NCBI GenBank assembly: GCA_900557355.1
Contig: USSR01000191.1
Location: forward strand, 1 to 10,472
Length of the DNA stretch: 10,472 bases
Source of the DNA: an uncultured Bacteroides sp.
Lineage (GTDB): Bacteria > Bacteroidota > Bacteroidia > Bacteroidales > Bacteroidaceae
Direction: 5' to 3'
Numbering within the stretch: position 1 is the first letter of the stretch; every line of letters begins with the position of its first letter. The notes under the pieces are model-generated. The model was not told the origin of the DNA and did no database searches. It saw only the letters and a list, made by a program, of their open reading frames with translations. This document shows, piece by piece, positions 272 through 10,332 of the stretch. Both the position numbers and the translations under genes were made by a program.

Positions 272-892
272 ATGGTAGATTTCATGGATGATAAACAATT
301 ATTGGGAGAGCTGAAAAGAGGCAATAATGCAGCTTTTGAGTTTCTGTTCAAGAGTTATTATCCTCGTTTGCGAGGGTATGCTATTCGTTTTATAGAAGAT
401 GAAGAAACGGTTCGTGATATTATTCAAGAGTGTTTCTTACGATTTTGGGAACGTCGCGAAATGTTATCTGCCTTCTCACTTACTTCTCTTCTTTTTTCTA
501 TGGTCCGCAATGGATGTCTAAATTATCTGAAGCATCGCTCGATTGTTGAAAAGTACCGGGTGGAGTACCTGGCAAAGGTGGATGGGGAAGAAAGACTCTA
601 CTATGCAGACTTTATGCAGGATGCAGAACATAAATTATTATACAAGGAATTGCAGGAGCAGATTGCCCTTGTGCTTAATCAGTTGCCGGACAGGTCGCGT
701 GAGATTTTTTTGTTAAGCCGTTTCAGGGGATTGAAGAACAGAGAAATCGCAGAAAAACTACAAATATCTACCACAGCAGTCGAAAAGCATATAGCAAGGG
801 CTTTGCAATATTTCTCCCGGCATTTCAGCGAACGCTATCCGGTGGATCTGTATATAGTGATATTGGCATGGCTGATGATGGAGCAGAAATAA
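272..892 (+). CDS. FecI-type ECF RNA polymerase sigma factor
   Basis: This is an RNA polymerase sigma-70 factor of the extracytoplasmic-function type, about 206 residues, the usual size for Bacteroidetes FecI-like factors. Sigma region 2 covers about residues 20-90 (SYYPRLRGYA, then DIIQECFLRFWERR), and region 4 covers about 125-183 (LNQLPDRSREIFLLS, then the helix-turn-helix NREIAEKLQISTTAVEKHI). The start at 272 is the longest; M5 at 284 is a good alternative because the predicted transcript begins only about 12 bases before 272. The anti-sigma gene follows, then a TonB-dependent receptor with a signalling domain, the classic trans-envelope arrangement. The likely targets, by inference, are the repeated motifs at 962-1001 and 3229-3268. 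The C-terminus has an odd hydrophobic tail (VDLYIVILAWLMM, residues 191-203) beyond region 4. Family assignment is secure; the regulated genes are inferred. Confidence 0.95.
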   Translation: MVDFMDDKQLLGELKRGNNAAFEFLFKSYYPRLRGYAIRFIEDEETVRDIIQECFLRFWERREMLSAFSLTSLLFSMVRNGCLNYLKHRSIVEKYRVEYLAKVDGEERLYYADFMQDAEHKLLYKELQEQIALVLNQLPDRSREIFLLSRFRGLKNREIAEKLQISTTAVEKHIARALQYFSRHFSERYPVDLYIVILAWLMMEQK

Positions 893-1001: not shown

Positions 1002-1011
1002 AGTGAATATA

Positions 1012-1995
1012 ATGAAGCAAGAAGAAAATATCCGTGAATTGGCTATTCAGTATTTTGAAGGACGCATATCAAGAGCTGACGAAAAGAATCTGTTCGAATA
1101 TATCGAACAGGTGGAAGGTGGCTATGGCAGGTTCCGTCAATGGGAGAGAGAATGGATGAATCACCGGAATACCGATTCGGAGACAGATGCCGAATGGGAA
1201 GCTTTGAAGCATAAGATGTATACGCAGGAAGCGATTGTCCCGTTATTGAAAAAGTCGAAACCTGGTATATGGAAGATAGCCCGTATCGCTGCCGTTATAG
1301 CATTGATTGTCGGTACTACGTTGGGTATTCAACAGGCTATTTACTTGTTTACGCCAAAGACTTTTTTTGTTTGCGAAGCTCCGTTGGGGGATAAGAGTAA
1401 GATACAGCTTTCGGATGGTACAGTTGTATGGCTGAATGCAGGTTCCGTATTAAGATATTCGAATCATTTTAATACAGCCGACCGGGTGGTGGAGCTGGAA
1501 GGAGAGGGGTATTTTGAGGTGACTAAACAGAATGGAAAGCAATTTACAGTAAAGACGCATGAATATGATGTGGTGGTAAAAGGTACGAAATTTAATGTAT
1601 CTGCCTATTCAGACGATTCGTATATAACAACCACCTTGCTGGAAGGAGCAGTAGAGTTGAATTATAAAGAAGATCAGATACGGATGTCTCCGGGAGAATC
1701 TATTTCTTTGGATTTGGTAACAAGACAGTTGAAAGGAAAGAAAGTAAATGCACGTCAGGCAATGGCGTGGGCGGAAGACAGGATTGAATATGATGACATT
1801 ACGTTAGGAGAGATGGTGAAGAAGCTTTCACGTCAGTACGATGTGCATATTCAGTTAGAGTCGGAGAAATTGGGCGATATGAAGTTCCGTGTTTCGTTGC
1901 GTAATAAAGAGACAATCGTAGATGTAATGGATGCACTGAAAGAAATCATACCTATCAAAGTAGAATATAAGGAAAAGGATATATATATAAGATAA
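1012..1995 (+). CDS. FecR-type anti-sigma factor with DUF4974 domain
   Basis: A single-pass inner-membrane anti-sigma factor predicted to hold the adjacent ECF sigma factor until signalled by the outer-membrane receptor. I start at ATG 1012 (MKQEENIREL). A GTG at 1003 is in frame but would almost abut the predicted transcription start. Counting from ATG 1012, a cytoplasmic sigma-binding region covers about residues 1-85 and one membrane helix about 88-107 (KIARIAAVIALIVGTTLG). The periplasmic FecR domain covers about 118-220 with the family hallmarks QLSDGTVVWLNAGS, GEGYFEV, GTKFNV and TTLLEGAVEL. The DUF4974 domain (about 255-327, ITLGEMVKKLSRQYDV onwards) is a relative of the STN domain found at the N-terminus of the SusC here. 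The gene is 32 bases upstream of the lipoprotein gene and probably shares its transcript. With an inducible-looking promoter of its own, it likely gives negative feedback on the circuit. Confidence 0.93.
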   Translation: MKQEENIRELAIQYFEGRISRADEKNLFEYIEQVEGGYGRFRQWEREWMNHRNTDSETDAEWEALKHKMYTQEAIVPLLKKSKPGIWKIARIAAVIALIVGTTLGIQQAIYLFTPKTFFVCEAPLGDKSKIQLSDGTVVWLNAGSVLRYSNHFNTADRVVELEGEGYFEVTKQNGKQFTVKTHEYDVVVKGTKFNVSAYSDDSYITTTLLEGAVELNYKEDQIRMSPGESISLDLVTRQLKGKKVNARQAMAWAEDRIEYDDITLGEMVKKLSRQYDVHIQLESEKLGDMKFRVSLRNKETIVDVMDALKEIIPIKVEYKEKDIYIR

Positions 1996-2027: not shown

Positions 2028-3173
2028 ATGAATATTACTCAAATAGGCAGATTTGGGATGCTGTTGATGATGGCATCTGTTGCAATCTCGTGTTCTGACC
2101 CTAATCCTTTGGACTCATACACTCGTGTTCCGTTCGAAAAAACGGAAACGGATGACGGAAATAGTGATGGTGACGGAGACGGTGCCGGCGGTTTGTTCGA
2201 GAAAGGAAACGGAACGGACAGCAAACCTTATATGATAATGAATGCTACGCAGATCAGAAATATGCGTAGTGTGTTGAAATCGGGAATGAAAGTTTATTTC
2301 CAGTTAGGTGCTGATATTGATATGGCAGGCATTGATGACTGGCAGTCGTTGAATGGTTCCGGTGATTTTCCTTATGAAATAGATTTTGACGGAGACAGCC
2401 ATGTCATTAAGAACTTCAAATGTTCTGCCGGTGATTATCCAAGTTTCTTCGGAGTATTGTGCGGTGATTGTCGTAATGTGGGCTTTGTGAATGCTTCTGT
2501 ATCATCTGCTCGGCAGGGGATTGGAATTATTACCGGTTATCTCGGACTTAAAGATAAAGGTAACGGAAATAAGACAGGAAGAATTGTGAACTGCTATACG
2601 ACCGGCGAAGTAATCGGTTCTGGTGCGGCAGGTGGAATAGCCGGTGTATTGGCAAATAGCTATGATGGGCAAGAAAGTTATATAAAGAACTGTTATTCAA
2701 ATGCAACGGTCAGCGATCAGGCGGCAAGTGGCGGAAAAGCAGGCGGTATTGCCGGACGGAAAGTAGGTGTCGGCGGATTTATTGAGAACTGCTATGCATA
2801 CGGAGCAGTCAGTGCAACTAAAGGAGGCGTAGGCGGTATTTTGGGACAAATCGACAAAAGTTGTGACATTGCTATCAAGAACAGCGCAGCATGGAGTAAC
2901 TTGACCGGAGTGGATGCTTCGTCAACCGTAGGACGCATTGTTGGGGTCTCTGCTTCATTAGGCAGTTATGAGAATTGTTACGCCTGCGAAAGTATTGTAC
3001 TCAAAGTGAATGAAAAAACGATTACCGCATCAGACGAATCATCAGCCACGGGAACAACTTTTCACGGAGTGGCGAAGTCAGCGGAAGAACTGGGGAATAT
3101 CATCGTAGCCTGGAATCCGAATCTTTGGAAAAAAGGAACGAACGGTTATCCGATATTCCAGTGGTCTGAATAA
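2028..3173 (+). CDS. GLUG-type beta-helix surface lipoprotein
   Basis: A 381-residue lipoprotein of unknown ligand. The signal peptide ends in a lipobox with Cys22 (SVAISC), so it is probably lipid-anchored in the outer membrane. An Asp/Gly-rich linker at residues 41-55 (TDDGNSDGDGDGAGG) follows and could act as a surface-export signal or bind calcium. From about residue 62 comes a lead-in typical of right-handed beta-helix proteins (KPYMIMNATQIRNM, FQLGADIDM, then DGDSHVIKNF). Next are imperfect GLUG-like repeats of the form I-x-NCY-x(3)-G-x-V ... GGIAG at about 151-320, and a C-terminal YPIFQW closing strand seen in such proteins. No catalytic motif is visible. GLUG proteins are usually adhesins or surface binders, so a binding role is inferred. 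Unusually, it sits between the anti-sigma gene and susC, is coupled to the anti-sigma gene (32-base gap), and is cut off from susC by a terminator and second promoter. Confidence 0.85.
   Translation: MNITQIGRFGMLLMMASVAISCSDPNPLDSYTRVPFEKTETDDGNSDGDGDGAGGLFEKGNGTDSKPYMIMNATQIRNMRSVLKSGMKVYFQLGADIDMAGIDDWQSLNGSGDFPYEIDFDGDSHVIKNFKCSAGDYPSFFGVLCGDCRNVGFVNASVSSARQGIGIITGYLGLKDKGNGNKTGRIVNCYTTGEVIGSGAAGGIAGVLANSYDGQESYIKNCYSNATVSDQAASGGKAGGIAGRKVGVGGFIENCYAYGAVSATKGGVGGILGQIDKSCDIAIKNSAAWSNLTGVDASSTVGRIVGVSASLGSYENCYACESIVLKVNEKTITASDESSATGTTFHGVAKSAEELGNIIVAWNPNLWKKGTNGYPIFQWSE
2580..2987 (+). repeat. Degenerate GLUG-like protein repeats
   Basis: The encoded protein repeats a unit of roughly 30 residues. 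Clear copies begin at RIVNCYTTGEV (185), YIKNCYSNATV (218) and FIENCYAYGAV (251). Weaker ones are at AIKNSAAWSNL (282) and SYENCYACESI (313). Most units are followed by a glycine-rich GGIAG or GGILG turn. The units are similar in protein but clearly diverged in DNA, so this is an old repeat rather than a recent expansion. Confidence 0.75.
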
Positions 3174-3352: not shown

Positions 3353-6300
3353 ATGAATGACCGAAGAAACTCATTTTTTAGACTGTTTCTCCTGATTCTG
3401 TTGTGTTTGGGCGTCCAGTCACTACGGGCGCAGACAGTTACAAAGGTCTTTAAAAATGAGCCGCTGAAGGCGGTATTGAAAGAAGTTGAGCGGCAGACGA
3501 AGTACTCCATTATCTATAAAACGGACGAGGTTAATGAAAACAAGAAGATAACGGCTTCCTTTCAGCAGGCAACTGTTAATAATGTGCTTGCTACTGTTTT
3601 GGATAAGGATGTAGAGTATAAACTACAAAACCGGATGATTATCATCACAAAGAAAACAGAACGTAATACTACTGCCGTCCCATCGCAGCCTTTACATCGG
3701 GTTAAGGGGAAAGTGGTCGATGTGAACGGTGACCCGGTAATCGGTGCCAGTGTACAGGTGATGGGACAGTCTATGGGAACGATCACGAATTTGGATGGTG
3801 AATTTACATTATCTTCGGTTCCGGCCAATGCCCTAGTCGTTGTGTCCTATATTGGATTTCAGAAGAAAGAAATTAAAGTCTCCGACTTGCAGAAATCTTC
3901 GAGAGTAATACTCCGGGAGGATACGGCTACGCTGGAAGAAGTGGTGGTGGTAGGCTACGGTACTCAAAAGAAAATAAACCTGACGGGAGCTGTTGCAGTA
4001 GTAGACAGTAAAGCGATGGAAGACAGACCCGTGCCGAGAGCCTCACAGATGTTGCAAGGGACTGTGCCCAATATGAATGTAACTTTTGGGTCTGGGTATC
4101 CGGGAGCTTCGGCAACTATCAATATCCGTGGTGTGAATTCTATCAGTGGCAATGCATCGCCATTAGTGCTGATTGACGGAATAGAAGGGGATATCGACCG
4201 CTTGAATCCGAATGACATCGCTTCCATTTCCGTATTAAAAGATGCATCTTCGGCCGCTATTTACGGGGCTCGTGCTTCTTATGGTGTTATCCTCGTGACT
4301 ACCAAGGAAGGCTCCGCCCGCAAGACTACCGTTTCGTATGATGGAAGATATTCATGGAGCAATCAGACGACTTCTACTGATTTTGAAACCAGGGGATATT
4401 ATTCGGCAGGCATCAACGACTTGTTTTATACCAATTATAACGGAAAGCCTTATACCAACTATACGGAAGAAGACTACCGCCAGCTTTGGTTGCGCCGGAA
4501 TGATAAAACGGAGAATCCCGAACGTCCCTGGGTAGTTACCGACCAACGTGACGGAAGAGATACATACGTCTATTACGGTAACTTCGACTGGTATAATTAT
4601 CTTTATCGTAAAAACAGACCGATGTGGGAGCACAATATCAGTGTCAGTGGGGGAAATGAAAAGTTGAACTATTATTTATCAGGAAATACAGTTGACCAAA
4701 CGGGTATCTTCAGACAGAATCCTGATAAATACAAGGTGTATAATTTCAGAAGTAAAATCTCGGCAAAGATCACTCCACGACTGACAATCAGCAATAACAC
4801 GAAGTACCATTATAATAGTTACTCTTATCCGGGATTATCGGGTATTAATAACAACTTCAATACTGCGGTGAATCATGCACTGGCGAGCTTTGTACCCATT
4901 AATCCGGATGGCAGTGCGGTGTATCTGACTTCGTTGAGCAATTCTGCTGTTTTGGATGGCATGGGAGCTATCCTTGCTTATGGAAAACATAAGAATGAAG
5001 ACCAGCGATATGAGTTTTCCACGACTTTCGAAGCAAGTTTCAATGTAATGAAGAACCTGAATGTCCGTGCAAACTACAGCTACCTGCACTATAACTATCA
5101 GACCATGAACAGAACAGTAAATGTACCATATTCCAAATATCCGGGTGAGATATCCTATCTGACTACCGGAAGCGGTGTGAATCAGTTGAAGGAAACACAG
5201 ACCAATCATTGGTATCAGGCTTTCAATGTTTATGGTGATTATATGCTGGATATTGCGTACCATCAGATAAAAATCATGGCAGGTTACAATTATGAAACCA
5301 AGCGTCTGAAAGATATCAAAGTCTCCCGCCAGGGTTTGCTCTCCGATGACTTGAATGACTTAAATCTGGCAGTCGGAGATGCGATGACTATGTCCGGCGG
5401 ACAGAATGAATATGCGCTTTTGGGAGCATTTTATCGTCTTAATTACTCCTATAAAGGAGGTCGTTACCTATTTGAGACAAGCGGACGTTATGACGGAAGT
5501 TCACGTTTCAGAAGCGGACACCGTTTCGGTTTCTTCCCCTCGGCTTCCGTAGGATGGAGAATCAGTGAAGAACCGTTTTTCGGGAATTTAAAGAAGAATA
5601 TTGATAATGTGAAATTGCGTCTCTCATACGGTTCGTTAGGAAATCAGCAGGTAGGATATTACGATTATATCCAAACCATTAATACCAACGGTACAATGAA
5701 TTATATCTTTGGCGATCAGAAGAAAGGCTCTTATGCAAGTGTCTCCGACCCGAATTCCGCCGACCTGACCTGGGAAACCGTTTCGACTTGGAACGTAGGA
5801 CTGGATCTCGGATTCCTGAACAACCGCCTGAACCTGACTGCCGATGCCTATGTTCGTGATACTAAAGGTATGCAAACTTCCGGCAAAAAGCTTCCCGGTG
5901 CTTATGGAGCCAACGAGCCCAAGCAAAATGCAGCCAACTTGCGTACCAAAGGCTGGGAATTGATGCTGACTTGGAATGATGCTTTCAAACTGGCAAACAA
6001 ACCTTTCCGTTATAACCTGTCCGTAGGCTTGGCAGATAATACATCGGAAATAACCAAATTCGATAATCCTTCCAAGATATTGAGTGATTATTATGTAGGT
6101 CAGAAATTGGGAGATATCTGGGGATATGTAGTAGACGGACTTTTCAGGACAGACGAAGAAGCGGCAAACTATAACGTCGACCAAACAGCAGTCAACTTCG
6201 TTATCAATACAGCGCAGGTGAATCCGGGACTTCACGCCGGTGATATGAAATTTGTTGATTTGGACGGCGACCATACAATATCTTCCGGCTCGAACACGGC

Positions 6301-6874
6301 AGATGATCCGGGCGACCGCAAAATAATCGGAAACTCATTGCCGCGCTATACATACAGTATTCAAGGTGGTTTCGACTGGTATGGATTCGACTTCTCCATC
6401 TATCTTCAGGGAGTAGGACATCAAGACTGGTATCCGGGTACTAATTCTGTATTCTTTTGGGGACCATACGCTCGTCCGTATTCATCGTTCATTCCACGCG
6501 ATTTCTTGAGCCAGGTATGGAGCCCGGAAAATCCCGATGCTTATTTCCCACGTCCGATAGGGTATCTTGCCCTCGGCAATAACCGTTCTTTGGGAGTGGT
6601 GAACGACCGTTATTTGCAGAATCTGGCTTATTGCAGAGTGAAGAATATCACAGTAGGCTATACGATTCCCGCCGTATGGACGAAGAAGGTAAAGATAGAA
6701 CGCCTGCATATCTATTTCAGTGGTGAGAATCTGTTTACCTTCTCTCCGCTAAAGAGCGACTACATTGATCCGGAACAAGCATCGGCAGAAAATTCCATCC
6801 AATCGGCAAATGGTAACGCAAAGTTGTATCCCTGGTCAAAGACCTATTCTTTTGGAGTGAACGTAACTTTTTAA
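3353..6874 (+). CDS. susC: SusC-family TonB-dependent outer-membrane transporter with STN signalling domain
   Basis: The outer-membrane barrel of a SusCD importer, energised by TonB, 1173 residues. A signal peptide covers about 1-26 (FFRLFLLILLCLG core, SLRA before Gln27). An STN domain follows at about 30-100 (LKAVLKEVERQTKYSIIYK to MIIITKK), which marks a receptor that signals to an anti-sigma factor. A carboxypeptidase-regulatory-like beta-sandwich is at about 116-189 (VKGKVVDVNGDPVIGASV, GTITNLDGEF), then a TonB box with LEEVVVVGYGTQKK (194-207). The plug is at about 212-325 (TINIRG, LVLIDGI, SVLKDASSAAIYGARAS), and the beta-barrel runs to the terminal aromatic residue (SFGVNVTF). The susD gene begins 19 bases later. 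The pairing with the FecR-type regulator upstream implies substrate-triggered induction. The symbol denotes the family; the substrate is unknown and need not be starch. Confidence 0.96.
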   Translation: MNDRRNSFFRLFLLILLCLGVQSLRAQTVTKVFKNEPLKAVLKEVERQTKYSIIYKTDEVNENKKITASFQQATVNNVLATVLDKDVEYKLQNRMIIITKKTERNTTAVPSQPLHRVKGKVVDVNGDPVIGASVQVMGQSMGTITNLDGEFTLSSVPANALVVVSYIGFQKKEIKVSDLQKSSRVILREDTATLEEVVVVGYGTQKKINLTGAVAVVDSKAMEDRPVPRASQMLQGTVPNMNVTFGSGYPGASATINIRGVNSISGNASPLVLIDGIEGDIDRLNPNDIASISVLKDASSAAIYGARASYGVILVTTKEGSARKTTVSYDGRYSWSNQTTSTDFETRGYYSAGINDLFYTNYNGKPYTNYTEEDYRQLWLRRNDKTENPERPWVVTDQRDGRDTYVYYGNFDWYNYLYRKNRPMWEHNISVSGGNEKLNYYLSGNTVDQTGIFRQNPDKYKVYNFRSKISAKITPRLTISNNTKYHYNSYSYPGLSGINNNFNTAVNHALASFVPINPDGSAVYLTSLSNSAVLDGMGAILAYGKHKNEDQRYEFSTTFEASFNVMKNLNVRANYSYLHYNYQTMNRTVNVPYSKYPGEISYLTTGSGVNQLKETQTNHWYQAFNVYGDYMLDIAYHQIKIMAGYNYETKRLKDIKVSRQGLLSDDLNDLNLAVGDAMTMSGGQNEYALLGAFYRLNYSYKGGRYLFETSGRYDGSSRFRSGHRFGFFPSASVGWRISEEPFFGNLKKNIDNVKLRLSYGSLGNQQVGYYDYIQTINTNGTMNYIFGDQKKGSYASVSDPNSADLTWETVSTWNVGLDLGFLNNRLNLTADAYVRDTKGMQTSGKKLPGAYGANEPKQNAANLRTKGWELMLTWNDAFKLANKPFRYNLSVGLADNTSEITKFDNPSKILSDYYVGQKLGDIWGYVVDGLFRTDEEAANYNVDQTAVNFVINTAQVNPGLHAGDMKFVDLDGDHTISSGSNTADDPGDRKIIGNSLPRYTYSIQGGFDWYGFDFSIYLQGVGHQDWYPGTNSVFFWGPYARPYSSFIPRDFLSQVWSPENPDAYFPRPIGYLALGNNRSLGVVNDRYLQNLAYCRVKNITVGYTIPAVWTKKVKIERLHIYFSGENLFTFSPLKSDYIDPEQASAENSIQSANGNAKLYPWSKTYSFGVNVTF

Positions 6875-6893: not shown

Positions 6894-8651
6894 ATGAAAC
6901 CTGTTTATATAGTATCTTGGTTGTTCGCGTTGGCGATATCTTTCGTGTCTTGCGACGATTGGTTGGATAAGACACCCAAAGACCGCCTGTATCCGGATGT
7001 ATATTTCAAGACTGAAGATGAGTTGCGATTATTTACGAATCAGTTTTATAACAATCTGGTTCCGTCCGCTGTCGATATTTATTCCGAGTCGTCCGATTTG
7101 ATTGTCAAGTCCGACTTGATGCTCGAAATGTCCGGACAGCGCATCATACCCGATGAAGGAAACGGTTGGAATTTTACGGCACTTCGCGATATTAATTTCT
7201 ATCTGCAGTATTCCCATAACTGCACGGAAGTGAATGCCCGTAACCGTTACGATGGTGTTGCCCGTTTTTTCAGAGCTTATTTCTACTTTGAGAAGGTGAA
7301 GAGATATGGCGATATTCCCTGGTATGACAAAGCACTCGACTCGGATGATCCCGAATTGTATAAAGCCCGGGACTCACGTGAATTTGTCATGCAGAAAATG
7401 AGGGAGGACCTGGATTTTGCGATAGCCAATCTTCCGAAAACGAAGAATGCGTATGTACTGACCCGGTGGACGGCATTGGCACTGAAATCCCGTGTCTGCC
7501 TGTTTGAGGGTACTTTCCGCAAATATCATGGACTGGAGGATTGTGAAAAATACCTGAATGCTTGTGTCTCGGCTTCTGAAACCTTTATGAACGAAAGCGG
7601 ATATACACTCTATAAATCGGGCAGCACACCTTACAGGGATTTATTCGCTTCCATAAATCTACAAGCGGATGAAGTGATTTTCGGGCGTGACTATGAAGCT
7701 TCTCTTTCTGTGCTTCATAATGTGCAGAATTATGAGAACTCCACCACAATGGGACGTCCGGGAATGAACAAGAAGATTGTGAATTCTTATCTGATGGCGG
7801 ACGGAAGCCGTTTCACGGATAAAGCCGGTTATGAAACGATGACATTCGATCAGGAATGTCAGAATCGGGATCCACGACTGGCACAAACCATTCGTACCCC
7901 TGGATATACGAGAATCGGAAGTACAAAGAAAGAAGCCCCGAACCTGGCTTATACTATGACCGGATATCACCTGATAAAATATTCGATGACGGCTAACTAC
8001 GATGAATATAATAAATCGTGCAACGATATTCCCCTGTTCCGCACGGCAGAGGTGTATCTGAATTTTGCAGAAGCAAAAGCCGAACTAGGCACTTTGAAGC
8101 AAGCCGACATCAATAAATCTATTAAATTACTTAGAGACAGGGTAGGAATGACTAATCTGGATATGGAACTGGCAAATTCAAAACCCGACCCGTATTTGAT
8201 GAGTGCCGCCACAGGTTATCCGAATGTGAAAGGAGCCAATCAGGGAGTAATCCTTGAAATCCGTCGCGAACGAACCATCGAACTGGCAATGGAGGGTTTC
8301 CGTTATTACGACATCATGCGTTGGAAAGAAGGTAAACTATTTGAGAACGATCTGCTGGGAATCTATGTTCCCGGGCCCGGAACTTACGATTTAGATAAAG
8401 ACGGTACGGATGATGTCTGTTTCTACGTAGGAACAAAACCTGCCGGAAATGTACCTTTATATTTAGAGATCGGCGAGCAGATTCGCTTGTCGAATGGCGA
8501 AAGTGGTTATATCATCTGTCATAGTCTGATTACCAAGAAATGGAATGAAGACAGAGATTATTTGTACCCTGTTCCTATCAGCGAACGTACTTTGTCCAAT
8601 GGTGTGATAACACAGAATCCCGGTTGGAATGACGGATTGAACTTTAATTAA
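6894..8651 (+). CDS. susD: SusD/RagB-family outer-membrane substrate-binding lipoprotein
   Basis: The surface lid and ligand-binding partner of the SusC barrel, 585 residues. A lipoprotein signal peptide ends at Cys20 (ISFVSC) and is followed by the acidic DDWLD stretch typical of surface-exposed SusD proteins. The N-terminal region (TPKDRLYPDVYFKTEDELR) and the TPR-type helices (RFFRAYFYFEKVKRYGDIPW, LTRWTALALKSRVCLFEGTF) match the family. So do the C-terminal hallmarks (FRTAEVYLNFAEAKAELG, LEIRRERTIELAMEGFRYYD, IMRWKEG) and the ending YLYPVPISER. An Asp-rich DLDKDGTDD segment at 499-507 resembles a calcium-binding loop. It is 19 bases from susC and 24 bases before the EEP gene, so the three are surely one operon. 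The ligand cannot be read from the sequence. Confidence 0.96.
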   Translation: MKPVYIVSWLFALAISFVSCDDWLDKTPKDRLYPDVYFKTEDELRLFTNQFYNNLVPSAVDIYSESSDLIVKSDLMLEMSGQRIIPDEGNGWNFTALRDINFYLQYSHNCTEVNARNRYDGVARFFRAYFYFEKVKRYGDIPWYDKALDSDDPELYKARDSREFVMQKMREDLDFAIANLPKTKNAYVLTRWTALALKSRVCLFEGTFRKYHGLEDCEKYLNACVSASETFMNESGYTLYKSGSTPYRDLFASINLQADEVIFGRDYEASLSVLHNVQNYENSTTMGRPGMNKKIVNSYLMADGSRFTDKAGYETMTFDQECQNRDPRLAQTIRTPGYTRIGSTKKEAPNLAYTMTGYHLIKYSMTANYDEYNKSCNDIPLFRTAEVYLNFAEAKAELGTLKQADINKSIKLLRDRVGMTNLDMELANSKPDPYLMSAATGYPNVKGANQGVILEIRRERTIELAMEGFRYYDIMRWKEGKLFENDLLGIYVPGPGTYDLDKDGTDDVCFYVGTKPAGNVPLYLEIGEQIRLSNGESGYIICHSLITKKWNEDRDYLYPVPISERTLSNGVITQNPGWNDGLNFN

Positions 8652-8675: not shown

Positions 8676-10235
8676 ATGAAAAATATGATTTCTTATATAT
8701 GTCTTTTGGCAACCGTGTTTGCCAACTTGTCCTGTGCCGACGATATGGACAACTCTAAATTCGATAATATGATACCTTACGGTAAACAGGAAGTTTCCTA
8801 TACTTATCCGAAAGGGGAGGGGAACCTTAGAGTGTTGACCTTTAATATAAGGCATTGTGCCGGTAACGATGACGTGATTAATTATGACAGGACAGCCGCT
8901 GTTATCAACGGAATGGAACCCGATGTCGTTTGCCTGCAGGAAGTGGACTACATGACTACCCGCAGTAATAAAGTCGACCAACTGAAAACCTTGGCGGATA
9001 AAACAGGCATGAATTACTATTTTAGTAAGTCAATCGCTTACCAGGGTGGTGAATACGGTAATGGCCTTTTGTTCAAAGGGACGCCGATCAGCACGAAGAC
9101 TTATCCCCTTCCCGGTGCCGAACTCCGTTCTGCTGCCATAGCCGAATTTGAGAACTATGTAGTTATCTCCACCCACTTGGCTTTGGAAGAGAATAATAGA
9201 GTTGAATCTGCAAAACAGCTCACAGACCTTGCCAAAACATATAATAAAGTGGTTTATATGGCTGGTGACTTTAACGAGGACTTGATGAATGGCACATTCT
9301 TTACGGAACTGAAGAAAGAATGGGAGGTTGTCAGTTCTACAGAAAACACTTTTCCTACCGGACAGGCTACCAAACGGATTGATTTTGTCGTTACTTTGAA
9401 AACTCCACCTACCACTGTGGTAAAATCGAATGTAATATACAACCTGGATGGTGTCAACGTAGCAATAACTTCCGACCATTATCCACTTTATTGTGATTTT
9501 AAGAAGCCGACCGGACTTGAAGAATATCCGAAGGCAGAAGGTGACCTGCGCATAGGTAACTATTTCCTGACCTATTGTAAAGGTACAGATGGCGTGATTG
9601 ATTACGACCGGACAGGACGTATTATCGCCAAAATGAATGCGGATATTGTCTGCTTGCAGGGACTGGATAAGGAGACGGAACGTTCGGAAGGTATCGACCA
9701 GTTGAACGTACTGGCACAGAAAGCAAATATGTATGATTACTTTGCTAAAGCCATTGATTATAAAGGCGGTGAATTCGGTGTTGGTATACTGACAAAAGAA
9801 GAACCTGTAAGTGTAGACAGATACCAAATGGCGGGAAAGAGCGAGATGCGTGCAGCCATGGTAGTGGAATATGAAAAGTTTGTAGTAGCCAGTACCAACT
9901 TCGATACGGATATGGCAAAGCGTATAGAGGCCCTTCAAACGTTAGAAACGAAACTGTCTGCCTATAATAAACCTGCATTCTTGTTAGGATACTTCAATGA
10001 GGGCGACTTGGAAAGCGAATTTTTCCAAATGGTGAAGAGTAACTGGAATCTTCTTAGTGCCGATAAGTCTACCGAAGTCAGTGGTAAGAAACGTCGCCTT
10101 GACTTTATCGTGTCTTTGAAGAGTCACAACGTAAATGTGACACAGGTTGATGTGATAGAAAGTCTGTCGGGAGTAGATGTGACCGTTGCTTCTACACATT
10201 ATCCTCTTTTTTGTGATTTCTCCGGTTTAAAATAG
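8676..10235 (+). CDS. Tandem EEP-fold (DNase I/phosphodiesterase-like) lipoprotein with degenerate second domain
   Basis: A 519-residue predicted lipoprotein: signal peptide to Cys20 (FANLSC), then ADDMDN, acidic as in surface-exported lipoproteins; the Asn at -3 is atypical. Residues 51-275 form an endonuclease/exonuclease/phosphatase domain with every expected motif. These are FNIRH (Asn57), LQEVD (Glu89), YGNG (Asn129), STHL (His167), AGDFNED (Asp198, Asn200), RIDF (Asp236) and TSDHYPL (Asp267, His268). By family knowledge it should hydrolyse a phosphodiester or phosphomonoester with a divalent metal; nucleic acid, a phospholipid head group or a phosphorylated sugar are all possible. Residues 291-515 repeat the fold but lose most catalytic residues: Asn57 to Phe297, Glu89 to Gly329, His167 to Asn408, Asp198 to Tyr439, Asp267 to Thr507. 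It keeps Asn441, Asp476 and His508. The second half is probably a pseudoenzyme used for binding or support. It is the last gene of the susC operon and the only enzyme seen in the locus. Confidence 0.88.
   Translation: MKNMISYICLLATVFANLSCADDMDNSKFDNMIPYGKQEVSYTYPKGEGNLRVLTFNIRHCAGNDDVINYDRTAAVINGMEPDVVCLQEVDYMTTRSNKVDQLKTLADKTGMNYYFSKSIAYQGGEYGNGLLFKGTPISTKTYPLPGAELRSAAIAEFENYVVISTHLALEENNRVESAKQLTDLAKTYNKVVYMAGDFNEDLMNGTFFTELKKEWEVVSSTENTFPTGQATKRIDFVVTLKTPPTTVVKSNVIYNLDGVNVAITSDHYPLYCDFKKPTGLEEYPKAEGDLRIGNYFLTYCKGTDGVIDYDRTGRIIAKMNADIVCLQGLDKETERSEGIDQLNVLAQKANMYDYFAKAIDYKGGEFGVGILTKEEPVSVDRYQMAGKSEMRAAMVVEYEKFVVASTNFDTDMAKRIEALQTLETKLSAYNKPAFLLGYFNEGDLESEFFQMVKSNWNLLSADKSTEVSGKKRRLDFIVSLKSHNVNVTQVDVIESLSGVDVTVASTHYPLFCDFSGLK
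8796..10232 (+). repeat. Internal tandem duplication of a ~240-residue unit
   Basis: Residues 41-280 and 281-519 of the EEP lipoprotein align end to end at an offset of 240-241. Examples are YPKGEGNLRV / YPKAEGDLRI, VINYDRT / VIDYDRT, DQLKTLADKTGMNYYF / DQLNVLAQKANMYDYF, GGEYGNG / GGEFGVG and HYPLYCDF / HYPLFCDF. The duplication covers the whole domain including its linker. Similarity is plain in protein and only patchy in DNA, so the event is not recent. Confidence 0.9.
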
Positions 10236-10250
10236 AAACGTTATAGAGAG

Positions 10251-10293
10251 GCTGCACAGAGCTATGCACATATCGTGTGTAGAACTGTGCAGC
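10251..10293 (+). terminator. Nested hairpin after the EEP gene, probable operon terminator
   Basis: An outer perfect 9-bp stem pairs GCTGCACAG (10251-10259) with CTGTGCAGC (10285-10293). Inside it, a second stem pairs TGCACA (10265-10270) with TGTGTA (10276-10281), with one G-T pair and a TATCG loop. It starts 15 bases after the stop codon. No run of T follows (TTCATTATAT), so it may be a weak or factor-assisted terminator or a 3'-end stabiliser. Confidence 0.5.
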
Positions 10294-10332
10294 TTCATTA
10301 TATAGCTTATCAAACATCAAATGGAGTGGTAT

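Follow-up and report, generated by a model that had tools for sequence, protein, structure and literature searches.

The window analyzed here is a stretch of 10,472 nucleotides from an uncultured Bacteroides sp. (contig USSR01000191.1), read on the forward strand. Its last gene (8676..10235, forward strand) encodes a 519-residue lipoprotein, P0001, in which two copies of an endonuclease/exonuclease/phosphatase (EEP) domain stand head to tail. The first copy has a complete catalytic site, while the second is a dead copy that has lost five of the eight site residues and is under purifying selection. The reading that we prefer, tentatively and with a shade less than even confidence, is that domain 1 would be an active metal-dependent phosphoesterase and that domain 2 would be a conserved, metal-free pseudoenzyme holding the substrate or the product.

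P0001 is a duplicated EEP lipoprotein

The open reading frame and its translation match the EEP profile PF03372 in two stretches (E 1.1e-21), with 78 bits against a gathering score of 24.5. When the two halves are aligned with each other, 97 of 231 columns are identical (42%), and the alignment score of 499 compares with 53 for the best of 200 shuffles. The segments YDR, DQL, GGE, and HYPLxCDF are found in both. Domain 1 covers residues 45-279 (8808..9512) and domain 2 residues 285-519 (9528..10232), both on the forward strand. An EEP fold is predicted for each half by fold comparison, which, together with a profile search, matched P0001 to EEP structures. A search of solved structures with the full-length sequence returned no match up to E 0.1, and no tandem repeats were detected on scanning the gene. 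Exodeoxyribonuclease III and CdtB were rejected as identities for P0001, the NCBIfam matches being below cutoff (27.8 bits against 189 for CdtB) and attributable to cross-talk within the superfamily.

The N terminus reads as a signal peptide and a lipobox ending at Cys20 (ANLSC; 8676..8735, forward strand), in which S19 and C20 are invariant among nine aligned sequences. PMC6222051 describes acidic residues behind the lipid-bearing cysteine as the surface-export motif of Bacteroides lipoproteins. Since the acidic A-D-D-M-D that follows Cys20 resembles this motif, P0001 is probably an outer-membrane lipoprotein exposed at the cell surface.

Domain 2 has lost five of eight catalytic-site residues

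Domain 1 holds all eight site residues (N, E, H, D, N, D, D, and H) and domain 2 only three. The pairs are N57/F297, E89/G329, H167/N408, D198/Y439, N200/N441, D236/D476, D267/T507, and H268/H508, so that F297, G329, N408, Y439, and T507 stand for N, E, H, D, and D. A sequence-only reading of this DNA had already proposed the duplication, these eight pairs with five replacements, and the conserved segments, all of which held on recalculation.

We wondered how general this arrangement might be. Ten nonredundant members were assembled, with either two domains (the window-like P0001, P0003, P0004, P0005, P0007, P0011, and P0015, and in addition P0038) or three (P0010 and P0013). P0010 and P0038 may be neighbors, the longest contig listed for each being 5992 bases. 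In each of them the first domain is intact and all later domains are dead, giving 12 dead copies; none of these second and third domains is intact, in keeping with the sequence-only reading. P0010 and P0013 carry two dead copies apiece (active, dead, dead), and P0015 has a longer, proline-rich linker between its domains. Truncated or foreign-fused versions of the gene (P0006, P0008, P0009, P0012, P0014, and P0016, with P0009 representing 263 sequences) lie outside the 12 dead copies and could reflect frameshifts in particular strains, the ends of contigs, or faulty assembly.

We surveyed 195 EEP domains of the retrieved proteins and loci, each covering at least 85% of the profile; the second domains of P0008 and P0014 were among them. 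Of these 195, 1) 170 have all eight site residues, 2) 20 have at least four site changes, all of them second or third copies of the P0001 family or fragments thereof, and 3) the remaining five have one or two changes, four through gaps and one (in P0045) through a D-to-H replacement. P0045 (701 residues) is another protein with two EEP domains, one copy being intact and the other changed, D to H, at the Asp198 position only. In a further set of 113 EEP domains, selected with a similar length cut, 111 were intact and two dead. Intact single-domain relatives also exist (P0039, L031, and L029). Within the genus of the nearest genome, whose named members are Bacteroides, 5 of 158 genomes gave a full-length match; an order-wide sample of 393 genomes, with at most two candidates scored per genome, yielded 1. 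A profile of the dead domain matched 6 of 395 class-sampled genomes at 1e-30, the nearest genome at 7e-112 and the next at 9e-51.

None of the 12 dead copies retains Asn57, Glu89, or Asp198; Asp267 is lost in 10, His167 in nine, Asp236 in five, Asn200 in three, and His268 in none. The question raised by the sequence-only reading, whether the same residues are always lost, thus has a mixed answer: this is so for the first three residues and not for His167 or Asp267, which are kept in three and two copies, respectively. The replacements are also constrained. Glu89, a metal ligand in EEP enzymes, has become Gly in 11 of the 12 copies (G329 in P0001, codon 9660..9662), Asn57 has become Phe or Tyr in 10 (F297, 9564..9566), and Asp198 has become Tyr or Phe in 11 (Y439, 9990..9992), all three codons lying on the forward strand. 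When nine diverse dead copies out of the 12 were screened for aromatic gain (seven or more of the nine having F, Y, or W, against at most two of the 10 first domains), columns 57 and 198 were the only ones to emerge out of 232.

At 42% identity, five changes among eight columns picked arbitrarily would be nothing unusual. Site loss in domain 2 of P0001 is nonrandom because active relatives do not vary at the site columns. With a conservation threshold of 95% in the 170 intact domains, five of eight site columns are changed against none of six others (Fisher p 0.028), at an 80% threshold the counts are 5 of 8 and 6 of 25 (p 0.059), and mean retention over the dead copies is 0.34 for site columns and 0.97 for the six non-site columns conserved at 95% or more (permutation p 0.002); these p values are guides only, since related sequences are counted as independent and the intact set (170 of 195) was chosen by all eight residues, which makes the site columns fully conserved by construction. 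All 12 dead copies and all 10 first domains keep Arg52, Gln88, Asp91, Arg96, Glu149, Arg151, Arg175, and the site residue His268. In the 170 intact domains, the corresponding counts are 169 for Arg151, 167 for Gln88, 160 for Glu149, 153 for Arg96, 152 for Arg175, 144 for Asp91, and 114 for Arg52. Asp410 (codon 9903..9905, forward strand; Ala169 in domain 1) is Asp in all 12 dead copies. As a residue new to the dead copies it was ruled out, since 28 of the 170 intact domains have Asp at the same position.

The dead copy is under purifying selection

We next estimated the ratio of nonsynonymous to synonymous substitution (dN/dS) by the Nei-Gojobori method, comparing the window with each relative, domain by domain. 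For domain 2 it was 0.050 (L021), 0.056 (L022), 0.052 (L023), and 0.110 (L081), and for domain 1 it was 0.062, 0.055, 0.056, and 0.085 in the same order; the ratios for both domains with L022 and L023 and for domain 2 with L081 are rough since dS exceeds 1. The domain 2 values draw on about 67 to 176 substitutions, and the full-length gene copies from five genomes have no internal stop codons. The dead copy is under purifying selection and does not look like decay, which agrees with the selection on a noncatalytic copy that the sequence-only reading had suggested. With its predicted fold kept, its catalytic residues lost, and purifying selection acting on it, domain 2 can be classed as a putative pseudoenzyme.

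Active and dead EEP domains have been paired at least twice

In maximum-likelihood domain trees, the second and third copies used fall into one clade, supported at 100/96 with 15 rows in one tree (which had 30 hand-picked single-domain rows and excluded L001, L002, L061, and P0045) and at 98/96 with 10 rows in the other (which had 27 hand-picked single-domain rows, of which four were trimmed at set positions). Domain 2 is derived from the catalytic domain by duplication, and a further duplication, this time of the dead copy, gave the proteins with three domains. The intact single-domain proteins P0039, L031, P0040, P0017, and P0041 lie among or beside these branches, at places that differ between the trees.

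Two other proteins, P0143 and P0144, show the tandem in reverse, with a dead EEP first (site SAHLNSDY) and an intact EEP second (NEHDNDDH). Their dead copy groups with its own active partner (94/94). A single origin of all dead copies was rejected, as constraining them to one clade costs 58.6 log units (approximately unbiased test, p-AU 0.000345), and the pairing of an active with a dead domain therefore arose at least twice. Both dead lineages have lost positions 57, 89, and 198, with different replacements; that of P0143 and P0144 has no aromatics there and has additionally lost 236 and 268. When 393 Bacteroidales genomes were searched with P0143 (E 1e-45), only its second, active domain was matched among the 11 matches listed. 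That active and dead EEP domains were combined twice independently, in opposite orders, suggests that their pairing has been repeatedly favored.

A binding role for domain 2 is proposed

Domain 1 is most likely a divalent-metal-dependent phosphoesterase, and domain 2 probably binds its substrate or product. We propose that domain 1 would act on a ligand of the neighboring SusC/SusD pair that is phosphorylated or carries a phosphodiester. In domain 2, born by duplication of the catalytic domain, the metal site would have been remodeled, Gly taking the place of Glu and aromatics that of Asn and Asp, with retention of the remainder of the domain, four Arg, a Glu, and the terminal His included. 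This domain would hold the substrate or product in a metal-free cleft, either concentrating the ligand near domain 1 or passing it to SusD. We favor binding over packing because the copy number varies, the Arg, Glu, and His residues are kept, and the aromatics come as a pair; the two dead copies of P0010 and P0013 fit an add-on module. Of the roles offered by the sequence-only reading, substrate capture therefore fits best, with its support from copy number, the kept residues, and the two aromatic site positions. Contact with SusC or SusD and dimer-like packing are possible but less favored, in view of the single-domain EEP beside the SusCD pair of L029 and of the intact single-domain relatives P0039 and L031; the predicted model is uncertain in how it places the domains (see below). 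The binding idea can be tested directly through residues F297, G329, Y439, and D410, and the identity of the ligand would tell which phosphorylated nutrient the SusCD operon imports.

Several observations weigh against this binding role. The aromatics could simply fill an emptied metal cavity. Retention of the Arg and Glu residues may have structural reasons, position 52 being Arg in only 114 of 170 intact domains, 96 in 153, and 175 in 152. Asp410 is fixed and not new in the dead copies, which makes it weak evidence for a new pocket. The predicted model of P0001 has a predicted template-modeling score (pTM) of 0.62, so that the placement of its domains is uncertain. On the side of selection, apart from the rough ratios mentioned above, amino acids change faster in the dead than in the active copy in three of four comparisons: against L022, for example, identity is 81.7% for the dead and 88.9% for the active copy, with L021 showing the opposite (96.2% and 95.7%). 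Likewise, P0143 and P0144 are identical at 168 of 232 positions in the dead domain and at 197 of 233 in the active one. The comparison with the nearest genome, L024, gives three nonsynonymous changes and one synonymous change in domain 2, a ratio of 0.87 based on too few changes to say.

The points about the cavity and the kept residues would suit a structural partner, that is, a domain 2 that packs on domain 1 or docks to SusC/SusD and whose aromatics are only filler. We regard this as possible but less likely than binding. The intact single-domain relatives (P0039, L031, and L029) indicate that no partner is needed for folding, and in L029 the syntenic SusCD pair adjoins a single-domain EEP. 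Moreover, the two dead copies in P0010 and P0013 and the long proline-rich linker in P0015 better match a tethered module. It is quite improbable that domain 2 is catalytic through another site, either metal-bound (for example by D410, N441, D476, and H508) or metal-free: as such a site would have it, all 12 dead copies contain D410 and H508 and nine contain N441, but only seven contain D476, and Glu89 is lost in all 12. Very improbable indeed is a disappearing relic with no selected role, for although the faster amino acid change in dead copies and the L024 comparison point that way, dN/dS stays at 0.050-0.110 over those many substitutions, 25 columns do not vary among nine dead copies whose mean identity is 44%, and full-length copies are free of internal stops.

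Our preference thus remains with a domain 2 that binds substrate or product. A bolder proposal, possible but doubtful at present, is that pseudo-EEP domains are a recurring phospho-ligand-binding module of nutrient-uptake loci, metal-free and aromatic-lined, which would have been made at least twice from a duplicated EEP in Bacteroidales and their kin and would have stayed attached to the active copy. If true, the pseudo-EEP would be a counterpart, for phosphorylated ligands, of carbohydrate-binding modules. Aromatic replacements are established for the window family only, the P0143/P0144 lineage having different ones.

The EEP gene closes a SusCD operon

The gene for P0001 is the last in an operon that also encodes, on the forward strand, an ECF sigma factor (272..892; PF08281, E 1.7e-15), a FecR anti-sigma factor (1003..1995; PF04773, E 8.6e-17), a GLUG-like repeat lipoprotein (2028..3173), a SusC with an N-terminal STN signaling domain (3353..6874; TIGR04056, E 6e-270; PF07660), and a SusD (6894..8651; PF07980, E 8.2e-48). 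Directly 3' of the EEP stop codon lies a strong hairpin (10242..10302, forward strand) with 28-nt arms that are 75% complementary (-36.9 kcal/mol, z -6.1), which likely marks the end of the operon; it is absent from the output of a simple terminator scan. In the nearest genome, the next same-strand gene 3' of the EEP gene encodes topoisomerase III, and the operon therefore very probably ends with the EEP gene. The six genes are entire in all four relatives covered at full span (L021, L022, L023, and L081). By its lipobox and its place in a SusC/SusD operon, P0001 can be classed as a SusCD-associated lipoprotein. In L021 (Bacteroides sp. GM023; 11699-18511), a second ECF-FecR-SusC set and a further lipoprotein-like gene directly follow the EEP gene. 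No glycoside hydrolase family was matched among the six window proteins scanned with Pfam, and a plasmid megablast search gave no match.

In the dN/dS comparisons, SusD and SusC are 96-98% identical. Against L022, L023, and L081, the EEP gene has a dS of 0.86-1.42, highest in domain 2, compared to 0.44-0.60 for SusD and 0.60-0.68 for SusC. Allelic replacement is a possible source of this divergence above that of the operon neighbors.

The GLUG-like lipoprotein has no Pfam match and resembles the GLUG part of P0040, with 34 of 122 residues identical (E 3e-05, from a single comparison of repetitive sequence). P0040, a 637-residue protein from a Rikenellaceae metagenome-assembled genome, is a fusion of an EEP domain to GLUG repeats, which in the window are encoded by a separate gene. 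This fusion suggests that the EEP enzyme and the GLUG-like lipoprotein may work together, the similarity being weak and repetitive.

L029, from another family, shows the syntenic order ECF-FecR-SusC-SusD (SusC, 49-52%; SusD, 56%) together with an EEP of one domain, downstream of which come a DUF5689 protein, a GH3, a GDSL esterase, and a GDPD. Its SusC is split between two reading frames (773 and 393 residues; L029:1949-5508). Locus L025 (2-8134) has SusC/SusD, a single EEP lipoprotein, an EEP-NAGLU fusion (GH89 type), and, slightly further, a second NAGLU gene. We infer the substrate class proposed above because 1) a single-domain EEP shares a run of genes with a GDPD (L029), 2) many EEP relatives carry phosphatase domains according to precomputed Pfam assignments, 3) in L025 an EEP fused to an alpha-N-acetylglucosaminidase adjoins SusCD, 4) in L077 an EEP has a GH2, an alpha-L-fucosidase, and a GH3 as neighbors, and 5) Flavobacterium SusCD loci for phosphodiesters are described in PMC8115612.

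Comparison with known systems

EEP enzymes are very widespread and, like pseudoenzymes, are a known kind of protein. An active EEP in tandem with a selected dead copy appears to be new; no description of one was found in the titles and abstract starts of the open-licence literature, an absence that is weakly established. With the EEP superfamily (PF03372), P0001 shares the predicted fold of both halves and the complete site of domain 1, and it differs in having a domain 2 that lacks the metal site and stands in tandem as a dead copy. The mannosyl-6-phosphatase BT3783 of B. thetaiotaomicron (PDB 4c1r) is 20% identical to P0001, with a partial profile match (E 2.2e-4), and unlike P0001 it has a single domain. 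Closer in layout are fusions of an EEP with a purple-acid-type metallophosphatase (P0021 and L026), in which an EEP 36-40% identical to domain 1 is joined to a second module; the partner there is an unrelated hydrolase, whereas in P0001 it is a dead EEP.

By sequence alone, the window operon resembles the PusCD loci of Flavobacterium in having a SusCD pair beside a phosphoesterase-type gene. In those loci, according to the available portion of PMC8115612, a SusCD-like pair lies beside phosphoesterases thought to scavenge phosphodiesters. The enzymes of PUS clusters listed there are of the PF00149, PF16670, and PF00245 types, the one EEP listed being an orphan, and regulation is by phosphate starvation, whereas the window locus has an ECF/FecR pair. 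A parallel for the dead copy is the yeast pseudonuclease Ssd1, which is likewise reported to be an inactive protein of nuclease fold recruited for binding; unlike domain 2 of P0001, it belongs to the RNase II family, binds RNA, and does not stand in tandem with an active copy of its own.
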